From Planctomyces sp. (GTDB lineage Bacteria; Planctomycetota; Planctomycetia; Planctomycetales; Planctomycetaceae), in NCBI GenBank assembly GCA_005778115.1, contig SXKJ01000405.1, positions 1 through 38,735 of the forward strand: a DNA stretch of 38,735 nt. The letters run 5' to 3'. The notes beneath the pieces were generated by a model. That model had not been told where the DNA came from. It searched no databases and was given only the letters and a program-made list of their open reading frames with translations. Positions 16,917 to 19,465 of the stretch are shown in pieces (the stretch's first letter is position 1; every line of letters starts with the position of its first letter). Made by a program: the position numbers and the translations under genes.

Positions 16917-17981
16917 ATGCCGGAATTTGATCGTTGGGTGAGACGATATGTGCGACGCATCAGCGTCGGCGAATTCCTGCGCGACGCGGCCGAATGGCTG
17001 GCGGGATTCTGTTTTGTCTTCGGTGCGGCGGTGCTGGCGGTGAAACTCCGCTGGCCGAGTCTGTGGCCGCAGGTGTTATGGATCGTCGCGGCGAGCTTGC
17101 CGGTGACAGGCGTGGCTTGGTGGCTGTCGCGTCGGCGACGGTTCAGCCGGCAAGACGCGGTCGCGATGCTCGATCAAAAACTGGAAGCGGGTGGACTGCT
17201 GATGACGCTCAGCGAGTTGCCTGGCGCGGCATGGAAGGCACGACTGCCACAGCTTGAATCGCTGTGGCGGCGAGCATTGCCGACGTTTCGGCCGGTGCGA
17301 TTCGCCAAGGTTGTAATTCTGCCGATCGTCTTCGCGGTGGCGACCTGTTTCGTCCCGCTCCGCGACGTCAACGAGCCGGTCGCGAAGGGGGAGGTCGCCC
17401 AGCAGGCGATGCAGCGACTGGAAGAGTTGATGCAGCAGCTTGAAGAAGCCGAGGTTATCAAGCCCGAAGAAAAGGAAAGCGAGCAGCTCAAAGAAGAGAT
17501 GCAGAAGCTCTCGCAGGAAACCAAAGAGCGGCCGCTGACTCACGAAAAGTGGGAGACGTTTGATGCGCTGCAAGAACGTCTGAAGGCGAAGCTCGAACAT
17601 CAGGCGAACCTGATGTCGCAGGCGGCGGACTCGCTGGCCGCGCTCAGCGAGGCGCTCGATCAATTGGGAAAGACCGGCGAGACGAAACTTTCCGACGACC
17701 AGTTGCAGCAGTTGGAGAATGAAGTCGCGAAGGCGATGCAGGAACTCGCCAAGAGTGGCTCGCTCGGCAAGTTGTCGCCGGCATTGCAGCAGAAGCTCGG
17801 ACAGATGGCGAAGTCGGGGCAGTTCCAGCTCCCCAAGGATGCGGCCGAACGAGAAGCACTCGCGGCGGAGTTGCAGAAGTTTCTCGACAAGGAATCTCAG
17901 AAGCTGTCTGAGCTGCGTACACAGTGCGAGAAGTGCAACAACCCGGATTGCGAAGAATGCAAGAAGCCAGGCGGCACCTGA
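16917..17981 (+). CDS. Membrane-anchored coiled-coil protein; ORF ends at a TGA followed by an in-frame continuation
   Basis: N-terminal TM segments, long Glu/Lys/Gln-rich coiled coil, Cys motif CEKCNNPDCEECKKPG. Confidence 0.75.
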   Translation: MPEFDRWVRRYVRRISVGEFLRDAAEWLAGFCFVFGAAVLAVKLRWPSLWPQVLWIVAASLPVTGVAWWLSRRRRFSRQDAVAMLDQKLEAGGLLMTLSELPGAAWKARLPQLESLWRRALPTFRPVRFAKVVILPIVFAVATCFVPLRDVNEPVAKGEVAQQAMQRLEELMQQLEEAEVIKPEEKESEQLKEEMQKLSQETKERPLTHEKWETFDALQERLKAKLEHQANLMSQAADSLAALSEALDQLGKTGETKLSDDQLQQLENEVAKAMQELAKSGSLGKLSPALQQKLGQMAKSGQFQLPKDAAEREALAAELQKFLDKESQKLSELRTQCEKCNNPDCEECKKPGGT

Positions 17982-18314
17982 CTGGCAACTGGCAAACGTC
18001 CCGGTCGGGACACCAATCTCCCAGGCAGAGGTGGCGTGAATGAAGGACGCGGCGACGCGGAACTCGAATTTGGAGACATGTCGGACGGGAAGGGGACGAG
18101 ATTCAAAGAGTCGGTGTTGCCTCCGGGGTATCTCGACAAGCCGCGCGACGAGATCTTGTCGATCACCGGAACGGCTCCGAAGGTTCAGCCGTCCGAGTCG
18201 GCCCCACGCAACGCGGCCCGCCCGAACGAAGCCGCCTCCGGCAACGAAGCGTGGAATCGCAGCGTTCGCCCACGACATCGCAACGCGGTGAAGAGTTATT
18301 TTTCAGAGAAGTGA
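17982..18314 (+). pseudogene. Probable C-terminal part of the coiled-coil gene, same reading frame beyond TGA 17979-17981
   Basis: Same frame reads LATGKRPGRDTNLPGRGGVNEGRGDAELEFGDMSDGKGTRFKESVLPPG...RSVRPRHRNAVKSYFSEK with no further stop until 18314. Confidence 0.6.
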
Positions 18315-18331
18315 TCCATGATGTTTTGGAG

Positions 18332-18390
18332 CCGCGCCCGTCAGGAAGCGGTTGTTGATTCTTAAAAACACCGCTTCCTGACGGGCGCGG
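18332..18390. repeat. 21-bp perfect inverted repeat CCGCGCCCGTCAGGAAGCGGT
   Basis: 18332-18352 is the reverse complement of 18370-18390; 17-nt loop. Confidence 0.9.
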
Positions 18391-18430
18391 TTCCGTCTTT
18401 CAGAGACATTCAGAGAAACACCCCTCGCTC

Positions 18431-19465
18431 ATGGACGCACCTGCTAAAGACCCGTTGTTGACTCCGTCTGAAGTGGCGGAGGCTCAGCAGTTATTGATGC
18501 GGCTGACCGACGGACTTGGTTCCGCGATCTTGGGACAATGGCGATTGATCGAGCAGGTCGTGATCTGTTTGCTCGCGCGCGGTCACATCTTGCTGGAAGG
18601 CCTTCCGGGTTTGGGAAAGACCGAGTTGGTGAAGTCGCTCTCGGCATTGCTCGGCCTGTCATCGAAGCGCGTGCAGTTCACGCCGGACTTGCTGCCCGGC
18701 GACATCGTCGGCGCGCCGATTCTCGAAGAGCACAACGGCAGCCGCAAACTCGTGTTTCATCCGGGGCCGATCTTCGCCAACTTAGTGCTGGCCGACGAAA
18801 TCAATCGCGCGACGCCGAAAACACAATCCGCGCTGCTGGAGGCGATGCAGGAAAATCGCGTCACGGTTTTGGGTGAGACACGCCTGTTGCCGCAGCCGTT
18901 CTTTGTGCTCGCCACGCAGAACCCGATCGAGTTGGAAGGGACATACCCGCTCCCCGAAGCGCAGATCGACCGCTTTACGTTCAAGATCAACGTGCATGGA
19001 GTCGGCAGCGAGACACTGCAGCAGATCATCAGCACTCGGAAGCGCGGTCAGGTGCCTCCGCTGGCCGAAGTGATGACCGGCACCAATCTCTCGCGTCTGT
19101 TCGATCTGACCGATCGAATCCACTTGCCCGAAGCGGTTGCGAACTACATCGCGCGGCTGGTGACGGCGACGCATCCGCAACGGGAAGACTCGCCCGACGA
19201 GGTCAAGAAGTTCGTGAAGTACGGAGCCTCGCCGCGTGCCGCGATTGCTCTGGCGGGGACCAGCCGAGCGGCCGCGCTGCTGGCAGGCAAACCGAACGTC
19301 GGCTTTCAGGAGGTGAAAAAGGTTGCGCCGTGCGTGCTCGGTCATCGTTTGATTTTGGATTACTCCGCACGGCTCGAAGGTTGGACGACCGCCAAGATGG
19401 TCGATCTGCTGCTCACCCGCGTGGCCGAGGTCGCTCATCAGTTGCCGGCCGATGTGAAGGCGTGA
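18431..19465 (+). CDS. MoxR-family AAA+ ATPase
   Basis: LLEGLPGLGKTELVKSL, LLPGDIVGAPI, LADEINRATPKTQSALLEAMQE, FVLATQNPIELEGTYPLPEAQIDRF. Confidence 0.96.
   Translation: MDAPAKDPLLTPSEVAEAQQLLMRLTDGLGSAILGQWRLIEQVVICLLARGHILLEGLPGLGKTELVKSLSALLGLSSKRVQFTPDLLPGDIVGAPILEEHNGSRKLVFHPGPIFANLVLADEINRATPKTQSALLEAMQENRVTVLGETRLLPQPFFVLATQNPIELEGTYPLPEAQIDRFTFKINVHGVGSETLQQIISTRKRGQVPPLAEVMTGTNLSRLFDLTDRIHLPEAVANYIARLVTATHPQREDSPDEVKKFVKYGASPRAAIALAGTSRAAALLAGKPNVGFQEVKKVAPCVLGHRLILDYSARLEGWTTAKMVDLLLTRVAEVAHQLPADVKA

Follow-up and report, generated by a model that had tools for sequence, protein, structure and literature searches.

A predicted selenocysteine codon in a coiled-coil gene upstream of MoxR in Planctomyces sp.

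The window, the 38,735-nucleotide stretch of Planctomyces sp. DNA analyzed here, carries a gene at 16917..18314 that is divided by one TGA; the parts of this gene and the MoxR gene described below lie on the forward strand. The upstream open reading frame (ORF; 16917-17981) encodes 354 amino acids and terminates at TGA 17979-17981, the sole internal in-frame stop of 16917-18314. From 17982 onward, the reading frame continues without interruption up to a stop that ends at 18314. An earlier note on this DNA had given the position of the stop, the open frame downstream, the coordinates, and the translation, and these were all correct when checked on the sequence. With selenocysteine (Sec) at position 355, the gene would encode 465 residues, in the order three N-terminal hydrophobic helices, coiled coil, Cys/Sec linker, and C-terminal module. 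The linker contains the cluster C337-x2-C340-x4-C345-x2-C348-x6-U355 (17925..17981), which ends at the candidate Sec codon (17979..17981) in the context PGGT-TGA-C. A predicted SECIS hairpin, GTCCC-GGTC-GGGAC, lies at 17998..18011, with its loop starting 21 nt after the TGA, and a module with the pattern GRGD...FKExxLPPG...RPRHRxxVxxYF, identified as conserved by orthologue comparison and dN/dS, occupies 18036..18311.

The next gene encodes a MoxR-type AAA+ ATPase (18431..19465), in agreement with the claim that the divided gene lies directly upstream of MoxR. MoxR adjoins downstream in 27 of the 39 loci with enough flanking sequence but not in the others, e.g., G017, and a functional link to MoxR is only suggested by this arrangement. 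Between the coiled-coil gene and MoxR there is a near-perfect long inverted repeat at 18327-18394 around CCGCTTCCTGACGGGCGCGG. The repeat unit was seen in only one other of the loci retrieved for comparison (L194) and is probably a dispersed palindromic repeat.

Searches of Pfam, NCBIfam, PDB sequences, and PDB folds assigned the protein to no family and returned chance coiled-coil matches only. The AlphaFold2 model built with 35 sequences (mean pLDDT, 73; pTM, 0.46) consists of long N-terminal helices, more helices to residue 339, and a short final helix, with low confidence across the Cys/Sec linker and for the greater part of the tail. According to the positive-inside rule, everything past hydrophobic helix 3 would be predicted to be extracytoplasmic.

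Each half of the gene was used separately as a query against 99 related genomes, and the whole protein, with the stop written as X, against 171 genomes of the family. Adjacent orthologues of both halves were present in about one-third of the 99 relatives. The orthologue check proposed in the note showed the halves joined in one uninterrupted ORF in 36 of the orthologues compared, and a TGA interrupts the gene in 16 others. Most genera have the fused form, and outside a few lineages the gene is a single ORF of approximately 440 to 560 amino acids. The proposal that both parts are one gene is strongly supported. The dN/dS ratio of the tail is 0.03 to 0.18, compared to 0.03 to 0.08 upstream of the TGA, indicating that the tail is under purifying selection in the frame read through the TGA and is not decaying.

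The TGA at residue 355 occurs in 10 of the 12 genomes of the window's genus, and the two genomes without it (G001 and G008) are deeper-branching members. The 10 genus carriers were assembled separately, from different lakes and projects, and the spacing between the halves within the genus changes by multiples of three only. Beyond the genus there are six further carriers, with one TGA each in G017 and G046 and two each in G020, G130, G206, and G207, all within the corresponding linker, giving a total of 20 in-frame stops in 16 genomes of six genera. Every one of the 20 is a TGA with C as the next base, the frame is kept throughout, and no TAA or TAG was found among these interruptions. Codons for PGGT precede 18 of the 20 TGAs. 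Three loci titled Candidatus Kuenenia stuttgartiensis (L186, L187, and L188) contain a gene 83 to 84% identical to that of the window's genus, and these titles look misassigned.

We additionally aligned 52 sequences, entering the stop as X so that it was scored neutrally. The linker is of low complexity and variable, as is the cluster spacing, and its alignment is uncertain, so single columns should not be overread. With this limit, 16 of the 20 TGA codons fall on Cys-rich columns: six carriers have a TGA at a column where 35 of the 52 sequences show Cys, and the 10 genus members have theirs at a column where 16 of the 52 do. As for the second TGA, in G020, G206, and G207 it coincides with a sparse column containing four Cys residues, and in G130 with a column lacking Cys. 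Within the genus, the Cys form CKACEGCKPCDKEGEC corresponds to CEKCNNPDCEECKKPGGT-U, and the first site in the double-TGA lineages reads PGGT-U-x-x-C.

The region after the TGA was compared with the bacterial SECIS (bSECIS) model, which specifies an apical loop of 3 to 9 nt with G in the first two positions, a stem of 4 to 16 bp, a distance of 16 to 37 nt from the UGA, and a free energy of -7.5 kcal/mol or lower (PMC13188914). The hairpin in the window, with a GGUC loop and a 5-bp stem 21 nt from the UGA, fits the loop, stem, and spacing limits. The bare hairpin has a free energy of -7.1 kcal/mol, slightly short of the -7.5 of the model, a shortfall that concerns the window's own sub-clade, and the other measured GGUC carriers range from -7.4 to -13.8 kcal/mol. 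The GGUC loop starts 21 or 24 nt past the last TGA in 14 of the 16 carriers. Counting G017, in which a different hairpin of 18 nt comes first and the distance is 42 nt, the GGUC hairpin is present in 15 of 16; it was not found in G046, which has the TGA. None of the 36 noncarriers has it in the linker (P = 4e-12 for carriers versus noncarriers, uncorrected for kinship). The search for a SECIS-like hairpin that the note had suggested was decisive for the interpretation.

Compensatory two-sided changes were observed in four of the seven hairpin pairs, with a covariation score of 0.567 versus at most 0.159 in slid controls; G017 was left out of the pair counts because MAFFT misplaced it in the hairpin alignment. 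Synonymous randomization reproduced such a hairpin in 0.3 to 2.4% of trials per gene. Third positions are variable in 1 of the 12 codons right after the TGA versus 114 of 354 upstream in the window's sub-clade, and in 1 of 11 versus 163 of 354 in the other sub-clade. Taken alone, the thermodynamic z-scores do not reach significance for the hairpin region of most carriers, given its composition (the 45-nt window region has -13.2 kcal/mol and a z-score of -0.67), and 8% of all codon positions have a generic bSECIS-like hairpin of -7.5 kcal/mol or lower. The case therefore rests on the invariant loop, the fixed spacing, the covariation, and the pairing with Cys. A search of six carrier genomes for further GGNACNTGAC...GGTC sites gave one other match in the window's genome. 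Similar sites at G020:C3:71880-71916 and G206:C145:5280-5316 both match the pattern GGT-UGAC...GGUC.

In the orthologues of G020, G206, G207, and G130 (L029, L154, L155, and L153, respectively), the two in-frame UGAs are 12 to 13 codons apart. A hairpin conforming to the model follows the second UGA only, and the first UGA has none of its own. One GGUC SECIS might serve both UGAs, with a folded spacer hairpin cutting the effective distance of the first UGA from 57 to 63 nt to approximately 18 to 26 nt. The same arrangement would explain G017, but we regard this as a tentative and rather doubtful proposal. The analysis is least certain about how the double-UGA relatives decode their first UGA and about G046, whose TGA is not followed by a GGUC hairpin.

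The window's genome encodes SelB (350 bits; cutoff, 242), SelD (288 bits), and a tRNA-Sec with anticodon TCA. Every one of the six carrier genera includes at least one genome with a tRNA-Sec; it was not found in G002, G004, G006, G010, and G207. SelB was detected in 15 of the 16 carriers versus 18 of 40 Cys-form genomes (P = 0.0008 uncorrected, with no power after correction for kinship), and the genome in which it was not found, G130, is 80% complete. In G130, G020, G206, and G207, the SelD gene itself has an in-frame TGA, read directly in G130 as GGG-U-ACKI, and this independently supports UGA as a Sec codon in those genomes. The SelD of the window's genome (G000:C424:3087-4013, L174) is a Cys form within an 879-codon open frame and is apparently fused behind an NAD/FAD-type oxidoreductase domain.

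The gene has an in-frame UGA with conserved coding on either side, homologues with UGA in other organisms, and, as far as the uncertain linker alignment allows, homologues with Cys at the Sec position, in a genome with SelB, SelD, and tRNA-Sec. From these computational observations, together with the GGUC hairpin, we infer, with a probability of about 0.9, that it is a selenoprotein gene with Sec inserted at UGA 17979. In that case it belongs to a bacterial selenium-protein family that has apparently not yet been described. The GGUC-loop hairpin 21 nt downstream would recruit the complex of SelB and Sec-tRNA-Sec to the UGA, and with Sec inserted, translation would continue to the end of the 465-residue protein. 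Under a shortage of selenium or SelB, termination at the UGA would leave a 354-residue membrane/coiled-coil fragment without the C-terminal module. For E. coli, a recoding level of 30 to 40% is reported (PMC4513850). The N-terminal hydrophobic helices would anchor the protein, with the Cys4-Sec cluster on a flexible linker; in other lineages the predicted cluster would consist of Cys only or of Sec-x-x-Cys and a second Sec. Known selenoproteins are mostly redox proteins (PMC9312934), and on this basis the cluster most likely serves a partner, perhaps the neighboring MoxR complex, as a selenol/thiol redox switch or relay.

Among the explanations that the note had offered, a nonsense mutation, reinitiation, and plain readthrough are each a poorer fit than selenocysteine. 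Seen in a single genome, one stop in an open frame could be a recent nonsense mutation, a pseudogene, or a sequencing error. However, the TGA is common to 10 genomes of the genus and recurs, always as TGA, in other genera, with low dN/dS on either side of the stop at dS up to approximately 1. The origin of the carriers in different lakes and projects rules out sequencing error, and we reject this group of explanations as extremely improbable. Near-cognate tRNA readthrough of a leaky UGA-C without selenium would agree with the UGA-C context and the conserved PGGT upstream, but it predicts neither the Cys correspondence, nor a SECIS-like hairpin at fixed spacing, nor a tRNA-Sec in each carrier genus. 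Programmed UGA readthrough was thus the right form of explanation, with selenocysteine insertion favored over near-cognate suppression, which is very unlikely.

Gene fission with translational coupling, in which translation stops at the TGA and reinitiates at GTG 18036 to give two proteins, draws on the GTG and a purine-rich stretch upstream of it in all 10 genus carriers, where the Cys-form genomes G001 and G008 have GTC. This start is not conserved, however, as the codon at 18036 is GTA, GTC, ATC, or ACC in the other carriers, and the Val at this position is conserved in fused orthologues too. The reading frame is preserved in every case, and the stretch between the TGA and 18036 keeps its residues while third positions change, indicating in-frame constraint on the linker. 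Fission also leaves the invariable TGA-C, the Cys alignment, and the covarying GGUC hairpin unexplained, and we consider it very unlikely. Frameshifting or bypass is needless, since the frame is always zero.

Like known bacterial bSECIS selenoprotein genes such as fdhF and selD, the gene has an in-frame UGA-C followed 16 to 37 nt downstream by a hairpin with a G-rich apical loop, and it occurs with SelB, SelD, tRNA-Sec, and Cys-containing homologues. In contrast to those genes, the predicted Sec is situated not in a recognizable catalytic domain but in the disordered, Cys-rich linker of a coiled-coil protein anchored in the membrane. The putative regulatory protein FmdB family, listed with U/CxxU (CxxC_CxxC zinc-ribbon type) in PMC9312934, is similar in having Sec for Cys in a CxxC...CxxC arrangement; the protein described here differs in being a membrane coiled-coil protein with variable cluster spacing and no match to that sequence family. 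Planctomycetes from the Porphyra genomes likewise have a full Sec-decoding set, and the main text of that report names FdhA and FmdB and mentions no MoxR-linked coiled-coil protein (PMC4807772). We found nothing recognizably alike in the 2022 list of 87 selenoprotein families (PMC9312934) or among the nine new deep-Sep families (PMC12013277).

Gene callers that treat TGA solely as a stop split this gene and lose its conserved C-terminal module. As a selenoprotein, it would add an apparently unlisted family to a phylum sparsely covered by selenoprotein surveys. Its Sec would sit not in a thioredoxin-like active site but in the disordered, Cys-rich linker of a membrane protein. The predicted Sec and Cys forms within one genus, with double-Sec forms elsewhere, would allow direct tests of selenium dependence and of SECIS spacing.
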